Source: a virus
Length of the DNA: 64,000 nt
IMG/VR virus record: IMGVR_UViG_3300030104_002647
Span: 1-64,000 of that record
Direction: 5' to 3' (one strand)
In this document: positions 5,806 through 18,987 of the stretch, piece by piece
How the letters are laid out: each line of letters begins with the position of its first letter
Numbering within the stretch: position 1 is the first letter of the stretch
The notes under the pieces: model-generated
Told to the model about the DNA's origin: nothing
The model's database searches: none
Seen by the model: the letters and a program-made list of their open reading frames with translations, nothing else
Program-made: the position numbers and the translations under genes

Positions 5806-6363
5806 TTAATTAAAAACTGTTGTCATATAATTGTCAACTGCATTCCCTTCCCTACTATTAGTAATATAGCTTGGAACTGACGTATGGTAGGAGTATTTTG
5901 AAATCCTGTCTAATATCCCATCCAATTCGTTAAATACATTGTAAATTTTTAGAACAGTAATGCTCACATCTTTCCACTCTTTTTCATTACCACCTTTTTG
6001 TCGTGTGGTTTGTATGTGTGCAGTTATGATTCCGCAATCATTTACATCCTCACCGCTGAAACGAATCTTACCTTGCAGATATATTCCTTTGGGGGTGAGA
6101 AATTCTTTGACTATCAGCTCTAGCCAAGCGTAGTAGCCGTAGAACTTTTCTTGGTCTGTCCATTCTAGATAGTGTTCTCCTCCTACCTCGTATATGTTCC
6201 ACTTCAGCCAAATACTTGGAGCGTCTTCTCTTCCGGTTGTATATTTGTCATCGTGAATTGTGTGTCTTGGCTCTAGCCAATTGTTGTGGTAGTCGATTAA
6301 CTCGCTGTCTGTTAATTTTTTAGACAGTTTCATCCTACCGATAAACTCTGTTGTGTATCCCAT
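5806..6363 (-). CDS. Conserved phage protein of unknown function
   Basis: 185 residues. The pattern MGYTTEFIGRMKL ... L-T-D-S-E near the N-terminus, then PSIWLKWNI, then LEWTDQEKFYGYYAWLELI, then GEDVNDCGII is that of a widespread but uncharacterised family in phages and Bacteroidota. It is probably a small beta-rich soluble protein. It is the gene immediately downstream of the tRNA-like RNA and hairpin, with an AAACATTATG start context. Confidence 0.6.
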   Translation of the reverse strand: MGYTTEFIGRMKLSKKLTDSELIDYHNNWLEPRHTIHDDKYTTGREDAPSIWLKWNIYEVGGEHYLEWTDQEKFYGYYAWLELIVKEFLTPKGIYLQGKIRFSGEDVNDCGIITAHIQTTRQKGGNEKEWKDVSITVLKIYNVFNELDGILDRISKYSYHTSVPSYITNSREGNAVDNYMTTVFN

Positions 6364-6416: not shown

Positions 6417-6427
6417 AGGATTATAGA

Positions 6428-6544
6428 ACGCAGACGAGGATTCGAACCTCATTTTATTAACCTAACGTCATGTGTCAAATTAGTAAGGTAGTTATGATTC
6501 TCCTTACCTATAACCACTTCCGAGCACCATGCTATCATCTGCGT
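6428..6544 (-). ncRNA. tRNA-like RNA with non-canonical interior
   Basis: The minus strand gives a perfect 7-bp acceptor stem (ACGCAGA with TCTGCGT) and a T arm TGAGG/CCTCG around the canonical loop TTCGAAT, with TG at the position 8-9 equivalent. The interior is 86 nt, about 30 nt longer than even a class II tRNA. Helices possible there are GGTAAGG/CCTTACT with a 13-nt loop, an alternative 8-bp helix GTGGTTAT/ATAACTAC that competes with it, and a variable-arm-like hairpin with loop ACATGAC. No normal anticodon loop or D arm can be assigned and no CCA is encoded. It could be an aberrant or intron-containing tRNA, or a tRNA mimic. Confidence 0.6.
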
Positions 6545-6602: not shown

Positions 6603-7325
6603 TTATTTCTCCGGTTTATAATTAGGATTTGGAGCGTTCTCAGTCGTTAAAACTTGTAACATTATTGCATCCATAAACTGCTCTAAAATGTACCCAAACT
6701 TGTCATCAAAATTGTGGTCTTCTCGCCAATTGTGTAGCCACCTTTTAAAGTCATTAAGCACCTTATAATCAGTCATATATCTGCTTATCCAAGACAGCAT
6801 TCTCTCATAGTATTCAGTAACTACATACTCGTCATGGACGGTACAATTACCACCACAATAGGAGCAATCTTCTGCAATCTCATCATAATCTTGGTCATCA
6901 TCATGCGAATTATAACATCTGCTAGACTCCCAACCACTTCCACCGCACTCACAACAATCCGTAAATCGTTCCTCAATCACATTGCAGTTTCCGTTGTTGA
7001 AGTAGTCGTAATAGAATCTATTAGCTACTCGAATCAGCTCACCATGAATGGTCTCAGCTTCCGCAGAAGATGGAACTAGCTTTTTATACAGCTCGTTATG
7101 TTCTTTTTGGTAAGCTCCTTCATCGTTCCAATACCTTTTGCCTAGCGGTGTTGATTTACCCTGATGCTCTGCTGTTTTTTCCATCCAAGCCATCCAATCG
7201 ACTAATATTTTACGAGCATCGATTTTGCTCATACCGAATCTGCGTTGTAGGTAGGGGGTCGCACCTAGCATATTTGTCTCCCCTGACATCTGCAAATCGC
7301 AGAGGTAATTAAAATGTGTGTTCAT
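6603..7325 (-). CDS. Zinc-finger-like conserved phage protein
   Basis: 240 residues. The N-terminus (YLCDLQMSGETNMLGA, then YLQRRFGMSKIDARKILVDWM) is a recognisable helical phage domain of unknown role. The middle has two cysteine clusters, CCECGGSG (about 124-131) and CSYCGGNC (about 154-161), like the CxxCxGxG units of DnaJ-type zinc modules. A zinc-stabilised binding protein is likely. Its ATG is 26 nt downstream of hammerhead ribozyme 1, so its mRNA should carry the cleaved ribozyme at its 5' end. Confidence 0.6.
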   Translation of the reverse strand: MNTHFNYLCDLQMSGETNMLGATPYLQRRFGMSKIDARKILVDWMAWMEKTAEHQGKSTPLGKRYWNDEGAYQKEHNELYKKLVPSSAEAETIHGELIRVANRFYYDYFNNGNCNVIEERFTDCCECGGSGWESSRCYNSHDDDQDYDEIAEDCSYCGGNCTVHDEYVVTEYYERMLSWISRYMTDYKVLNDFKRWLHNWREDHNFDDKFGYILEQFMDAIMLQVLTTENAPNPNYKPEK

Positions 7326-7351: not shown

Positions 7352-7400
7352 CTGTTTCGACCTTTTGGTCTCATCAGCGATAGTACACACTACCGGACAG
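7352..7400 (-). ncRNA. Type III hammerhead ribozyme 1
   Basis: On the minus strand: stem III CTGT/ACAG (7397-7400 and 7352-7355); cleavage-site C at 7396; stem I CGGTAG/CTATCG with loop TGTGTA; core CTGATGA (7371-7377); stem II GACC/GGTC with loop AAAA; and core GAA then A15.1. All invariant hammerhead core bases are present, with scission predicted between 7396 and 7395. The open end is stem III, hence type III. It ends 26 nt before the ATG at 7325. Confidence 0.9.
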
Positions 7401-7421
7401 GAGCAGTTTAAAATCATGCTC
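7401..7421 (-). repeat. Hairpin abutting hammerhead 1
   Basis: Minus-strand GAGCA/TGCTC closes an 11-nt loop and ends exactly at the first base of ribozyme stem III. Equivalent hairpins precede the other two ribozymes, so this is part of a repeated unit. Confidence 0.55.
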
Positions 7422-7440
7422 AGGATTACACTTACTGAAT

Positions 7441-7851
7441 CTACTCTACGCAGTAGCCATCTTCATCGACTTCTACGACAAAGTAATCTGAGTGATTATC
7501 GACTAGCTCCGCAAGGGTTTCATCATCAATATCATCAATCATATCATCGGATAAGATATCTGAAGATATGGAGGTGTTAAATAACATTCCATCTTCAAAC
7601 ATACTCTGAACCTCTGACATCATTTCATATTCATCGGTGAACAGCTCATCACAAGGGTAATACGCTCCTTTGTCTGCGTCTCTTCTATCGGTGATAATGT
7701 AGATATCAAATCCATCTTTTGAAGTTTCACACAGAATGTGAATCTCTGTTGATTGGTGATAGGGGGTCTCGATTGAACTTCCAAATACATCTTTTAAAAT
7801 GGTTTCAATTCCCATATCTCGAAGCTCTTGAATTTTTACTTTTTTTCTCAT
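7441..7851 (-). CDS. Acidic hypothetical protein
   Basis: 136 residues, very acidic in the C-terminal half (DILSDDMIDDIDDETLAEL and VEVDEDGYCVE). No family recognised. Its net charge and place in the early accessory block would suit a host-interaction or DNA-mimic role, but this is only a guess. Hammerhead 1 and its hairpin follow its stop codon. Confidence 0.5.
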   Translation of the reverse strand: MRKKVKIQELRDMGIETILKDVFGSSIETPYHQSTEIHILCETSKDGFDIYIITDRRDADKGAYYPCDELFTDEYEMMSEVQSMFEDGMLFNTSISSDILSDDMIDDIDDETLAELVDNHSDYFVVEVDEDGYCVE

Positions 7852-7852
7852 T

Positions 7853-8086
7853 TTAGTTTTGATTTAAATTAGACATTCTTTCTTTATGCTCTGCATACAA
7901 TAGAGCGATTATAAGGCACGAACAAAATCCGTACAGGCATACACACGCAATCCAAACAATAACACCGGTAAAAGTGCTTATATCGGTTTTTAGAATGTGG
8001 ATGAATAAATTGCCTACCATAAAAATTATTGGTAAACTGACTAGAGCGTATATTAACGACTCTGAATAAATTAATAGTTTTTTCAT
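7853..8086 (-). CDS. Two-span membrane protein
   Basis: 77 residues with hydrophobic spans at about 9-32 and 41-66 and a charged C-terminus (EHKERMSNLNQN). It is an inner-membrane protein of unknown role. The ATG lies 25 nt downstream of hammerhead ribozyme 2. It is spaced by one base from the next gene. Confidence 0.55.
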   Translation of the reverse strand: MKKLLIYSESLIYALVSLPIIFMVGNLFIHILKTDISTFTGVIVWIACVCLYGFCSCLIIALLYAEHKERMSNLNQN

Positions 8087-8111
8087 AATGTTTATTAATT
8101 AATTATTATTT

Positions 8112-8160
8112 CTGTTTCGTTCTTTTGAACTCATCAGGTAAGGTACACACCTTACGACAG
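8112..8160 (-). ncRNA. Type III hammerhead ribozyme 2
   Basis: Minus-strand elements: stem III CTGT/ACAG (8157-8160, 8112-8115); cleavage C at 8156; stem I GTAAGG/CCTTAC with loop TGTGTA; CTGATGA (8131-8137); stem II GTTC/GAAC with loop AAAA; core GAA. Compared with ribozyme 1, stems I and II change on both sides so pairing is kept, while core and loops are unchanged. This is strong covariation support. It ends 25 nt before the ATG at 8086. Confidence 0.92.
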
Positions 8161-8176
8161 GGGAGCGTTAGCTCCC
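8161..8176 (-). repeat. Hairpin abutting hammerhead 2
   Basis: Minus-strand GGGAGC/GCTCCC with a TAAC tetraloop, ending exactly where ribozyme stem III begins. It may protect the 3' end of the upstream cleavage product. Confidence 0.6.
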
Positions 8177-8186
8177 TTTGTGTTAG

Positions 8187-8423
8187 TTAATTTATTTGTA
8201 TTCTACTTTGTAATATGTTGCGTTCTTCAATTGCTTTTTCAATCTCGTAATCCATTAAACCTTCTAATTGATTTAAGCTGTTATTTAACCTGTTAATATG
8301 TGCTACATTTGTGCATATATTTAAATGCCCATTAGCTATTAAAGTTTCATGTTGAAACACTTCTATTCCTCTGTTTTCGGAATCAATTTGTTCTGTAAAA
8401 TACACTTCTAGATTATATCTCAT
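8187..8423 (-). CDS. Hypothetical protein
   Basis: 78 residues with a beta-like N-terminal half and a helical C-terminal half (LNNSLNQLEGLMDYEIEKAI). No family recognised. The gene is 4 bp from its upstream neighbour, and its transcript end would be generated by hammerhead 2 cleavage. Confidence 0.5.
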   Translation of the reverse strand: MRYNLEVYFTEQIDSENRGIEVFQHETLIANGHLNICTNVAHINRLNNSLNQLEGLMDYEIEKAIEERNILQSRIQIN

Positions 8424-8427
8424 AATT

Positions 8428-8718
8428 TTATTTATTTAAGTTAGTAAGTTTGTAAATGCCGTCTTTTATTTTCTCTCTAGTTTCTTCTATATATTCGCCT
8501 AGAAAAGCATTTCTATATTTCCCTGTTGTTCTTGAATAATCCCAATAATATTCATCTAATTCAATCGGTTTACTTCCGTTAGGAATAAAGGCAATTATCG
8601 AATTATAGCTTTGAAAATAGCTACCCTTTTTAGTGTGAATTTTAAATTGATTTGCAACAGGGTTTCCTGAGTTGCTGTAAAAGTTTCGTACTCTGTAAAA
8701 ATCTTTTAAATTTTTCAT
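8428..8718 (-). CDS. Conserved small phage protein
   Basis: 96 residues. The pattern ANQFKIHTKKGSYFQSYNS, then IAFI, then LDEYYWDYSRTTGKYRNAFL is that of a recurrent uncharacterised family in Bacteroidota phages and mobile DNA. It is likely a compact soluble protein. Start context is AAACATTATG. Function is unknown. Confidence 0.6.
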   Translation of the reverse strand: MKNLKDFYRVRNFYSNSGNPVANQFKIHTKKGSYFQSYNSIIAFIPNGSKPIELDEYYWDYSRTTGKYRNAFLGEYIEETREKIKDGIYKLTNLNK

Positions 8719-8729
8719 AATGTTTAGTT

Positions 8730-8924
8730 TTAGTTATTATATTCTTCGCAATTCTCATCTCGAAGCTCTTGTATTTCTTGCTCAATAAACGATTCTAATC
8801 TGCAAACTAGCTCTTGTATATCGTTATCGTTTAATAATTCTTCAGATTCAATTTGTTCTGCCAAGTAGTTGTAAAAACCGCTTTCGTTTCCAAATTCTGA
8901 AATGTTTTGAATTAATTCTCTCAT
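8730..8924 (-). CDS. Small acidic protein
   Basis: 64 residues, strongly acidic and helical (SEELLNDNDIQELVCRLESF). No family recognised. The ATG at 8924 follows hammerhead 3 by 24 nt. Confidence 0.5.
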   Translation of the reverse strand: MRELIQNISEFGNESGFYNYLAEQIESEELLNDNDIQELVCRLESFIEQEIQELRDENCEEYNN

Positions 8925-8948
8925 AATGTTTGTTATTAAATTTATAAT

Positions 8949-8995
8949 CTGTTTCTGCTTTCGCTTCTTCAGGTAAGGCGCACACCTTACGACAG
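8949..8995 (-). ncRNA. Type III hammerhead ribozyme 3 (divergent stem II)
   Basis: Minus-strand stem III CTGT/ACAG (8992-8995, 8949-8952), cleavage C at 8991, stem I GTAAGG/CCTTAC with loop TGTGCG, core CTGAAGA (8966-8972) and GAA. Position 7 is A instead of T, which the fold tolerates. Stem II is only a G-C and a C-G pair under a GAAA loop, with an A/A mismatch where the usual G10.1-C11.1 pair should be, so cleavage may be slow or lost. It ends 24 nt before the ATG at 8924. Confidence 0.78.
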
Positions 8996-9019
8996 GAGCA
9001 GTTTTTTCTCGACTTGCTC
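8996..9019 (-). repeat. Hairpin abutting hammerhead 3
   Basis: Minus-strand GAGCA/TGCTC around a 14-nt loop, adjoining ribozyme stem III as in the other two copies. Confidence 0.5.
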
Positions 9020-9031
9020 AGGTCGGTTCTG

Positions 9032-9094
9032 TTATACAAAGACAATCTCAAATTCTTGAGATATATCCTGTATTGCTATATCATATGCATTCAT
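9032..9094 (-). CDS. Possible 20-aa mini-ORF
   Basis: The reading frame MNAYDIAIQDISQEFEIVFV begins at an ATG preceded by TAAACATT, the same start context as the confirmed neighbours, and ends before hairpin and hammerhead 3. It may be a leader peptide or the remnant of a longer gene. Only the start context supports it. Confidence 0.35.
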   Translation of the reverse strand: MNAYDIAIQDISQEFEIVFV

Positions 9095-10769: not shown

Positions 10770-12383
10770 ATGAATCCAATTAAAATGCCATCCGGCTTTA
10801 ATCCAAAGGAATTATCTTTTGGAGATGAAGGGAGAAATAAACTTATCTCCGGTATTACCCAAATCGCAAATGCAGTAAAGAGCACTTTAGGTCCTAGAGG
10901 GAATACAGTATTAATAGAATCACAATATGTAACGGGAGGATTAACTGTAACTAAAGACGGTGTAACCGTAGCTAAGGCAGTTGATTTACTCGACCCTGTA
11001 GAGAACCTAGCGGTTCGTATGATGAAACAGGCGGCAGACAATACAGCATCCTCAGCAGGAGACGGAACAACTACAGCTATCGTATTGACTGAAGAGTTAG
11101 TGAAGCAGGGTAATGAATTAATGGATGATACCACAAACAGAGCTGAGGTTCTGCGTGAGATAGTGAGTGAGACTGAGAGAGTGATTGAGCGATTAAAGAA
11201 AGCATCAAAGAAGATTACAAATAAAAGACTGAAAGATGTTGCTGTTATCTCAGCAAACAATGACAAGGTTATAGGTAAAGTAATTGCAGATACATATAAG
11301 AAAGTAGGCAAGAACGGAATCGTTACTGTAGAAAAGTCAGAGTCTAGTGAAACATATAGTGAAACCACAAACGGTATTAAAATAGATAGAGGTTGGACTT
11401 CTCCTTTATTTGTAAACAATCAAAAGAAAGACGAGTCTATATTAGAAAATGTACATGTACTTGTAAGCGATGCTGAGATTAATAATGTATTGGCAATTGA
11501 AGGAATACTAAAACCAATTATCAACGAACAAAAGAAATTATTAATTATTGCACCAATGTCTGTTAATGTAGTAAACACTTTAGCTGCGAATGTAGTAAAG
11601 AATGGATTACAGTTATGTGTGATAGGTCCTCCGCAGTTTGGATACAAACAACACGAGCTTATGCAAGACATAGCAGTTTCGGTGGGTGCGAAATACTTTT
11701 CAGAAAAAACAGGAGATGATTTATCATTAATAACATTTGCTGACTTAGGTCATGCTGATAAATGTATAGTAGGTCAAGAGTCTTCTATATTAATTAAATC
11801 ATCCACACAAGAAACTGATGTTAGTGAACGAGTATCTCAACTATGGGATGCACACAAGATAACATCAAAGAAAGAAGATAAAGAGTTTATACTTTCAAGA
11901 ATAGCATCCCTTAGTGGTGGTATAGGTGTAATCTATGTTGGAGGACAAACTGATATTGAACAAAAAGAATTGTTCGATAGAGTAGATGATGCAGTATGTG
12001 CAGTTCGTTCCGCACTACAAGAAGGAATATTACCGGGAGGTGGAATAGCATTATATGATATTGCTGCAGCTCCAAGACAAGAGTCAGAAAAAAAATCCAA
12101 AAAAATTGCTGACGCAATTTTGTATAATTCTCTAATAGCTCCTTTAGCACAAATTTTAAAAAATGCCGGACTAGACCCTGAAGAACTATATTGTTGTTCA
12201 AAAGAAGACGGAAAAGGATTTGATGTAAAGAATGAAAAATGGGGGAGTATGATTGATATGGGAATTATTGACCCAATGAAAGTAACTAAGAGTGCTTTAC
12301 AAAATGCAGTTTCAGTAGCAGTAACAATATTATCAACCAATGCCATAATAACAATGGCACGAACATACGAACAGAAAGATTAA
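10770..12383 (+). CDS. groEL: Chaperonin GroEL (phage-encoded)
   Basis: 537 residues, close to the 548 of E. coli GroEL and collinear with it. Key elements: TLGPRGNTV (39-47), GDGTTT (97-102) of the ATP site, VDDAVCAVRSALQEG containing the catalytic Asp equivalent of D398, and LPGGGIAL. The apical segment is divergent (VIGPPQFGYKQHELMQDIAV replaces the usual APGFGDRR block), and the C-terminus (MARTYEQKD) lacks the GGM repeat tail. It presumably folds phage proteins such as capsid or fibre subunits. The order groEL then groES is the reverse of bacterial operons. Confidence 0.96.
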   Translation: MNPIKMPSGFNPKELSFGDEGRNKLISGITQIANAVKSTLGPRGNTVLIESQYVTGGLTVTKDGVTVAKAVDLLDPVENLAVRMMKQAADNTASSAGDGTTTAIVLTEELVKQGNELMDDTTNRAEVLREIVSETERVIERLKKASKKITNKRLKDVAVISANNDKVIGKVIADTYKKVGKNGIVTVEKSESSETYSETTNGIKIDRGWTSPLFVNNQKKDESILENVHVLVSDAEINNVLAIEGILKPIINEQKKLLIIAPMSVNVVNTLAANVVKNGLQLCVIGPPQFGYKQHELMQDIAVSVGAKYFSEKTGDDLSLITFADLGHADKCIVGQESSILIKSSTQETDVSERVSQLWDAHKITSKKEDKEFILSRIASLSGGIGVIYVGGQTDIEQKELFDRVDDAVCAVRSALQEGILPGGGIALYDIAAAPRQESEKKSKKIADAILYNSLIAPLAQILKNAGLDPEELYCCSKEDGKGFDVKNEKWGSMIDMGIIDPMKVTKSALQNAVSVAVTILSTNAIITMARTYEQKD

Positions 12384-17730: not shown

Positions 17731-18987
17731 ATGGATAGAAAAGAAAAAACAGAAAGGTTTTCATTGAACGCTATATTATACATGGTAATAATTTTTTTAT
17801 TAGCAGCATTTACATATGGAGCACAAGCACAAGTTATAGTACAAGAGGATATTAAAATAAAAAAAGATAACATATTCAAAAAAGTATATAATGATTTTTT
17901 TAAATATGGAACTTTCTATGTTGCAGGTAATGTAAATAATCCGTATCAAAAACAATCAATTGATTATGTAGTAAGAACTAATCCTAGCGGAAGTTTATAT
18001 GATGTGCCGGTAGTTCAAGATGCTACTGAATATCATGAATTTGATTACAGATATGGATTAGGAATTAGACGTATAGCAAGATTCGATTATGAAAATAAAG
18101 AAAAAGCTTATTACGATGGTACGGAAAAAAATGTAGCATTATCTTCTCCTACAGCTGCATTTGATGGATGGGAATATTTATTTCATTGGGAGAAAGAAAG
18201 GGAAAGAGGTGAGGTGTTTACTAATCACCGTTACTTTCTTAGGCATACGGGTAATCATCACATTGTTAAAGTAGAGTCAAGAGCTGAAGGTAATGTAGGT
18301 TTTGAATACAATTCGGCAGAAGTTAGGGGAAGACTACCAATAGGTAAAAAGTTTAGTATATCAGCGGGTGTTATAGCAAGAACTCATGACCAAGCATTTG
18401 GATACAATCCTGTAGAAATTTGGTTAAATGAAACTAATGAAAGCGGATATGCATTGAATCCATGGTATACACTTGGATTCCAATACGGCTATGATGATAT
18501 AGCATATACCCAACAGGATGAGTTTGGGAATACAGTATATGATTGGTATTGGATTGACCCTGAAGGAAACATCGTAGCCGATAGTGATTTAGAGTTTCGT
18601 GAGACAGTCTTTGCTGACCTGATGAACAGATTTAACAGAGAGCAATGGGATTTACTTGATGCATTTGCAGAAGTAGCACCTATTGTCGGAATGGATTGGT
18701 ATAGTTATACAGATAAGGTATGGATTCATGCATATGCAAACTATATATTACCATATCATAAATACTTTAAAGGGGATGAAGCGTTTAGTTATTTAAATAG
18801 AAATAATTGGGGATTAGGTGGATTAAGACAAGATTCTGAATTAGAACAATGGGATGACTATCAGTTTGGTTTAATTAGTGGGTGGTACATTACTTCAAAA
18901 TTGAGTATATTTGTAGAAGGAGAGTATACCAAATTTTGGGATACTGAAATTTTTAAATCTACTATAGGACTAAACATTGAATTATGA
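17731..18987 (+). CDS. Outer-membrane-like envelope protein
   Basis: 418 residues. Basic N-terminus and hydrophobic segment (ILYMVIIFLLAAFTYGAQAQ at about 16-35) look like a signal sequence. The rest alternates aromatic beta strands (RYGLGIRRIARFDYENK; WYTLGFQYGYDDIAY; KLSIFVEGEYTKFWDTE) and ends in a strand T-I-G-L-N-I-E-L, as outer-membrane barrels often do. Homologues sit beside endolysins in flavophages, as I recall. It could alter the host surface or aid lysis. ATGA overlap with the endolysin. Confidence 0.5.
   Translation: MDRKEKTERFSLNAILYMVIIFLLAAFTYGAQAQVIVQEDIKIKKDNIFKKVYNDFFKYGTFYVAGNVNNPYQKQSIDYVVRTNPSGSLYDVPVVQDATEYHEFDYRYGLGIRRIARFDYENKEKAYYDGTEKNVALSSPTAAFDGWEYLFHWEKERERGEVFTNHRYFLRHTGNHHIVKVESRAEGNVGFEYNSAEVRGRLPIGKKFSISAGVIARTHDQAFGYNPVEIWLNETNESGYALNPWYTLGFQYGYDDIAYTQQDEFGNTVYDWYWIDPEGNIVADSDLEFRETVFADLMNRFNREQWDLLDAFAEVAPIVGMDWYSYTDKVWIHAYANYILPYHKYFKGDEAFSYLNRNNWGLGGLRQDSELEQWDDYQFGLISGWYITSKLSIFVEGEYTKFWDTEIFKSTIGLNIEL

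Follow-up and report, generated by a model that had tools for sequence, protein, structure and literature searches.

The DNA analysed here (hereafter the window) comprises positions 1 to 64,000 of the 65,006-base IMG/VR virus record IMGVR_UViG_3300030104_002647. Between positions 6603 and 9094 its minus strand carries a series of small open reading frames (ORFs), among which lie three predicted type III hammerhead ribozymes (HH1, HH2 and HH3), each adjoined upstream by a hairpin. In order of transcription, the features are:

9032–9094, minus strand: possible 20-codon ORF (MNAYDIAIQDISQEFEIVFV), the last ORF ahead of HH3
8996–9019, minus strand: hairpin GAGCA-(14 nt)-UGCUC, adjoining HH3 upstream
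8949–8995, minus strand: HH3, a type III variant; stem I GUAAGG/CCUUAC with loop UGUGCG; stem II an A.A at 10.1/11.1 plus two G-C pairs, with a GAAA loop; predicted cut after the C at 8991
8730–8924, minus strand: ORF of 64 aa, 24 nt downstream of HH3
8428–8718, minus strand: ORF of 96 aa, PHROG 21575, a family without assigned function
8187–8423, minus strand: ORF of 78 aa, the last gene ahead of HH2
8161–8176, minus strand: hairpin GGGAGC-UAAC-GCUCCC, adjoining HH2 upstream
8112–8160, minus strand: HH2, a type III hammerhead; stem I GUAAGG/CCUUAC with loop UGUGUA; stem II GUUC/GAAC with loop AAAA; predicted cut after the C at 8156
7853–8086, minus strand: ORF of 77 aa, 25 nt downstream of HH2
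7441–7851, minus strand: ORF of 136 aa, the last gene ahead of HH1, function not assigned
7401–7421, minus strand: hairpin GAGCA-(11 nt)-UGCUC, adjoining HH1 upstream
7352–7400, minus strand: HH1, a type III hammerhead; stem I CGGUAG/CUAUCG with loop UGUGUA; stem II GACC/GGUC with loop AAAA; predicted cut after the C at 7396
6603–7325, minus strand: ORF of 240 aa, 26 nt downstream of HH1, without a family match

The structural genes are transcribed in the other direction, and an exonuclease-like gene shares the strand of this region; an early operon is a plausible reading, and the gene layout suggests that a single RNA would span all three ribozyme sites. A megablast search found no close DNA relatives among named phage records. 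The host is likely to belong to the Bacteroidota, because relatives of the portal protein in named phages come from phages that infect Flavobacterium, Cellulophaga, Tenacibaculum and Maribacter. The window also encodes a GroEL-like chaperonin (10770–12383, plus strand; PHROG 5725, E 1e-131), and groEL and/or groES genes are present in the relatives MW202828 and Maribacter phage Panino.

All three elements share a stem III of CUGU/ACAG, a core of the form CUGANGA ... GAAA with an NUH cleavage triplet (here GUC) and an arrangement of three helices in which stems I and II are closed by loops and stem III is open, stem II of HH3 being marginal. The core is complete in HH1 and HH2 (CUGUC, stem I, CUGAUGA, stem II, GAAACAG). 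Both also have the G10.1-C11.1 pair at the base of stem II, where HH3 has A.A. Stems I and II of HH1 and HH2 are fully paired and differ in sequence, with identical loops (UGUGUA and AAAA); the conserved loops of this class (UGUGUA or UGUGUG, and AAAA) are compatible with a tertiary contact between loops I and II. A preliminary description of this locus had placed three minus-strand hammerheads at these positions, 24–26 nt ahead of start codons, with core bases and both loops kept between the first two. The positions held, HH1 and HH2 being recovered by Rfam and HH3 by the covariance model R1 (below); the measured distances to the ATGs at 7325, 8086 and 8924 are 26, 25 and 24 nt for HH1, HH2 and HH3, respectively, and the core and loops of the first two read as described.

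When 3.3 kb was compared with 4227 Rfam families at a relaxed threshold, HH2 and HH1 were the two top matches among all families, both to Hammerhead_3 (RF00008; 36.4 bits, E 1.9e-5, and 33.4 bits, E 1.3e-4, respectively), and the whole virus record returned the same two (E 8.7e-8 and E 6.1e-7). This covariance-model search, which the preliminary description had proposed, thus bore it out at the relaxed threshold and not at the gathering threshold, at which Rfam reported nothing in the window: HH1 and HH2 share topology, core bases and cleavage site with the family, and score 33–36 bits against its cut-off of 48.5. HH3 was missed by Rfam. R1, whose training set included HH1 and HH2 and left out HH3, scored the three at 70.6, 73.7 and 47.0 bits (E 2.1e-10 for HH3), the next match in the window reaching 11 bits. 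A loose core-plus-stems descriptor matched the window twice, against 0.015 matches per shuffled window.

Viral contigs were scanned with the pattern CTGTC N16–20 CTGANGA N10–16 CGAAACAG, which leaves pairing in stems I and II unspecified, and at least 120 stretches with the pattern were found, on contigs that may share ancestry, duplicates having been removed by sequence alone. The same hairpin–hammerhead element occurs in 45 stretches from bacterial genomes (L207–L251), many of them Patescibacteria bins; these are metagenome bins, in which phage contigs may be misassigned. Because CUGU/ACAG is the only stem III that either scan admits and the viral figure is a lower bound, these counts are not prevalences. 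Both stems can form in 108 of the 111 distinct viral pattern matches listed, compared with 0.1% when the variable segments were shuffled. In an alignment of 52 ribozymes, which were picked for having stems and are therefore biased towards pairing, 99.6% of cells pair, the covariation score is 0.75 (0.19 shuffled, at most 0.12 slid) and double-changed cells number 217 against 61 shuffled; R1 was built from this alignment. The covariation of stems I and II proposed earlier from HH1 and HH2, which differ and still pair, is thus a property of the larger set. A relaxed descriptor gave 162 matches, and none in reversed sequence. Chance matches are ruled out by the covariation and by the shuffled-segment, reversed-sequence and shuffled-window controls, and on this sequence evidence we judge the three hammerheads of the window to be genuine.

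Among the 108 viral ribozymes listed, 99 have, within 150 nt downstream, an ORF that starts with ATG and spans 30 codons or more (median 25 nt) and 93 have a stop codon within 150 nt upstream (median 34 nt); an ORF start lies within 60 nt of 89% of the viral ribozymes listed, against 35% of random same-strand positions. The order is stop codon, about 34 nt that include the hairpin, hammerhead, about 25 nt and start codon, and the spacing to starts in the window is typical of the class, given its median of 25 nt. Twenty virus records chosen for containing a match hold one to five copies each, often two or more, mostly clustered within a few kb. Fourteen phage or genome loci hold about twenty copies, one of which reaches the 48.5 bits that RF00008 requires for gathering; most such phage ribozymes thus escape the curated thresholds of Rfam, so that their abundance is underestimated. 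In many of the bacterial-genome stretches the motif GTTCTTT lies a few nucleotides past the ribozyme; neighbouring genes there are in some cases viral-looking (a helicase in L217) and in others chromosomal-looking (RhuM family in L232).

In all three window copies the last base of the upstream hairpin is the base immediately before CUGUC, a feature absent from the preliminary description. Under a strict definition (uninterrupted helix, loop of at most 14 nt, end 0–4 nt before CUGUC), such a hairpin precedes 65 of the 110 viral ribozymes listed, against 2.3% of random positions and 2.8% of positions at a comparable distance before other ORFs; for independently fetched ribozymes from bacterial genomes the figures are 27 of 49, against 4.3% and 3.4%. 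The enrichment reaches background level about 16 nt upstream and, in the same viral and genomic sets, has no downstream counterpart. The hairpin sequences are nearly all distinct (61 of 65 viral, 26 of 27 genomic), and the lower helix covaries in one homologous subfamily. Once stem III is lengthened by its Watson–Crick pairs, the most frequent distance between it and the hairpin is 0 nt. Since about 40% of ribozymes are without a strong simple hairpin by the strict criterion, the hairpin is common and not essential. A hairpin motif of the form ATCCTGARCANGAT...AAACTGCTC recurs before ribozymes at 7401–7430 of the window and in stretches L256 and L101, and a hairpin resembling it occurs without a ribozyme near position 2001 of L123.

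Conservation of the paired stems in related phages, set beforehand as a test of the preliminary description, was observed at two orthologous gene boundaries. In one relative (L123), 80% identical over the hammerhead stretch, the ortholog of the 240-aa gene (75% protein identity) is still preceded by a hammerhead; relative to HH1, its core, loop I (UGUGUA) and 3′ leader are nearly unchanged, stems I and II are changed and still paired, and stem III is CCGU/ACGG against CUGU/ACAG, with another hairpin possible upstream. In the other (G009, stretch L256) the 77-aa gene has a 43% identical ortholog, likewise preceded by a hammerhead whose stems have changed and still pair, the MAFFT alignment of the two HH2 leaders being unreliable outside the ribozyme. 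A single-sequence scan found no relatives of the 77-aa protein; the G009 ortholog emerged from the locus comparison. Three named relatives were scanned, and one gave a match: Flavobacterium phage elemoA_13-1A, a cultivable phage of Flavobacterium sp. BAL314. The match (38 bits, E 4.5e-8) occupies 18492–18542 and is separated by 16 nt from the annotated CDS 18260–18475.

The element is retained in some lineages and absent from others. Any hammerhead match was found in two of 13 portal relatives and one of 13 records with the 96-aa gene, so the element is dispensable for this lifestyle. A tie between the ribozyme and one gene family was rejected, as nearly all of the 68 viral relatives of the 96-aa gene are without a nearby hammerhead (two have one).

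Among the three copies, the putative activity of HH3 is the least certain. Its classification as a type III hammerhead in the preliminary description is favoured by its R1 score, with the qualification that stem II has only two G-C pairs above A.A and that the copy is absent from the Rfam matches. HH3 may be a dead copy; against this, an HH3-type stem II (AGC-AAAA-GCA) with A.A at 10.1/11.1, and a loop unlike that of HH3, occurs at 2277–2323 of L261, and related mismatches at this position (U.U) occur in L123 (1019–1067) and L256 (1687–1735, minus strand). These parallels suggest that HH3 is a tolerated variant. This phage group is thus repeatedly mismatched at 10.1/11.1, a position that is normally G-C.

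Phage hammerhead arrays were already known. Clusters of hammerheads that flank genes or gene blocks have been reported in prophages, where processing into gene-length mRNAs was proposed, native arrays of about 2 kb were found to cleave in vitro and a triple array to cleave in E. coli (Perreault et al., 2011; PMC3088659). The window resembles these arrays in having several hammerheads around small genes in one transcript direction, and differs in phage lineage, its portal relatives infecting Flavobacteriia. Of the preliminary interpretation, the type III assignment, the paired stems in relatives and the co-directional placement therefore stand, and the suggestion that such an array was new does not, since these prophage clusters and the same mRNA processing had already been reported. 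The accessible portion of Perreault et al. (2011) mentions neither an abutting 5′ hairpin nor a general spacing to start codons. That portion also describes the HHphage hammerhead of haloviruses HF1 and HF2, likewise a viral hammerhead just upstream of a start codon (13 nt), for which the 5′ end of an mRNA agrees with cleavage in vivo; it differs in belonging to an archaeal virus and in being a structural variant, and no array is mentioned there (PMC3088659). Theta ribozymes of gut phages are also self-cleaving elements in phage genomes, whereas their fold is HDV-like and they are associated with tRNAs and not with start codons (PMC10879173). The role of phage hammerheads has been in question since 2011, and a 2017 review still called that of prokaryotic hammerheads an open question (PMC6155905). 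We found no account of an abutting 5′ hairpin of hammerheads in a search that was thin on subscription journals, preprints and supplements, so that this absence is weak evidence; to our knowledge, the hairpin-plus-hammerhead unit has apparently not been described before.

Each element in the window is probably a two-part mRNA-punctuation cassette at a gene boundary of one polycistronic phage transcript. From the observed motifs, covariation, positions, hairpin enrichment and conservation at orthologous boundaries, we infer cleavage in the cell, the chemistry of the ends and effects on mRNA stability and expression. The first part would be a short stem-loop just past the upstream gene; the second, the adjoining type III hammerhead, would cut the transcript after CUGUC (predicted after 7396, 8156 and 8991). 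Given the placement between co-directional genes, cleavage would split the polycistronic mRNA and, as the preliminary description had it, is predicted to leave the ribozyme remnant as a 5′-OH leader. The released RNAs would measure about 835 nt (three genes) and about 760 nt (two genes), and the 240-aa protein would be left with a downstream mRNA of its own. Towards its 3′ end the upstream product would carry the stem-loop, then the five nucleotides CUGUC with a 2′,3′-cyclic phosphate (CUGUC>p), an end that would resemble the one left by an intrinsic terminator; the downstream product would begin with a 5′-OH at the opening pair of stem I, followed by stem II; a further 25 nt or so would precede the start codon, a distance that would leave the ribosome landing site open. 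The order of the elements thus gives a specific prediction for both mRNA ends. In well-studied bacteria an mRNA decays more slowly when it has a terminal hairpin or lacks a 5′ phosphate, which makes stabilising punctuation the simplest reading, and the likely gain would be individual phage mRNAs separated and stabilised without recourse to host RNases or transcription termination. Host RNase III cuts the early polycistronic RNA of phage T7 at gene boundaries, yielding mRNAs with terminal hairpins (Dunn and Studier, 1973, as listed among the references of PMC5371410). T7 processing works alike and is not a member of the same class, depending on a host enzyme where the RNA here is predicted to cut itself.

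The zero-gap geometry fits both protection of the upstream mRNA and support of ribozyme folding by the hairpin. It is possible, if somewhat doubtful, that folding is the whole story, with the hairpin stacking coaxially on the short (4–6 bp) stem III, shielding that stem from upstream sequence or trailing ribosomes and raising cleavage efficiency, and with protection of the upstream mRNA incidental. The peak of the gap to extended stem III at 0 nt and the shortness of that stem both speak for such an aid; gaps of 1–2 nt are nevertheless common, many intact-looking ribozymes have no hairpin, and stem III is only slightly longer in those that lack one. Alternatively, the hairpins could be intrinsic terminators of the upstream genes, with the ribozymes trimming read-through or beginning new transcription units. 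Their location just past stop codons, and the short T run that follows the hairpin in some relatives (for example L261), would suit this; no minus-strand terminator-like site was called at the window hairpins, however, and most hairpins are followed by only two or three T in the next 8 nt, so that the combination of a GC-rich hairpin and a U tract by which Rho-independent terminators are recognised is unsupported. Moreover, promoters would fit poorly into gaps of 26–40 nt, and sequences that resemble promoters are about as numerous in the region as after shuffling. We thus consider termination unlikely.

It is very improbable that the cleavage products are joined again into circles or spliced RNAs in the manner of viroid-like hammerheads. 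The type III topology would give each released RNA a 5′-OH, a cyclic phosphate and complementary stem III halves at its two ends, and CUGU/ACAG is common to all three window copies; in several multi-copy contigs (for example L032 and L031), however, neighbouring copies differ in stem III, and earlier work sought circular or spliced products without finding any (Perreault et al., 2011; PMC3088659). Equally remote is the idea that these motifs have no current role in gene expression and survive as relics or as selfish mobile segments, which would account for their patchiness among relatives and the want of a fixed gene partner. It sits poorly with the strong covariation, with the persistence of the ribozyme before orthologous genes whose proteins are 43% and 75% identical, while the stems changed, and with the tight spacing to start codons, which together indicate selection for both structure and place.

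Punctuation by hairpin and hammerhead may extend beyond the window: we tentatively propose, as a good possibility still short of probable, that the unit is a modular, self-encoded form of mRNA punctuation in many phages, as well as in phages or islands of Patescibacteria, in which a protective hairpin would end one mRNA and a 5′-OH hairpin just outside the ribosome landing site would start the next, replacing terminators and host RNase sites.

A tRNA-like stretch is located further downstream in the window, at 6427–6544 (minus strand), within the leader of the ORF at 5806–6363. It combines an acceptor-like helix and a T arm (GAGGTTCGAATCCTC) with an oversized middle; Rfam scores it as tRNA at 18.1 bits, under the cut-off, and ARAGORN finds no tRNA. 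Similar stretches occur in L123 near 200–300 and near 1870–2000.
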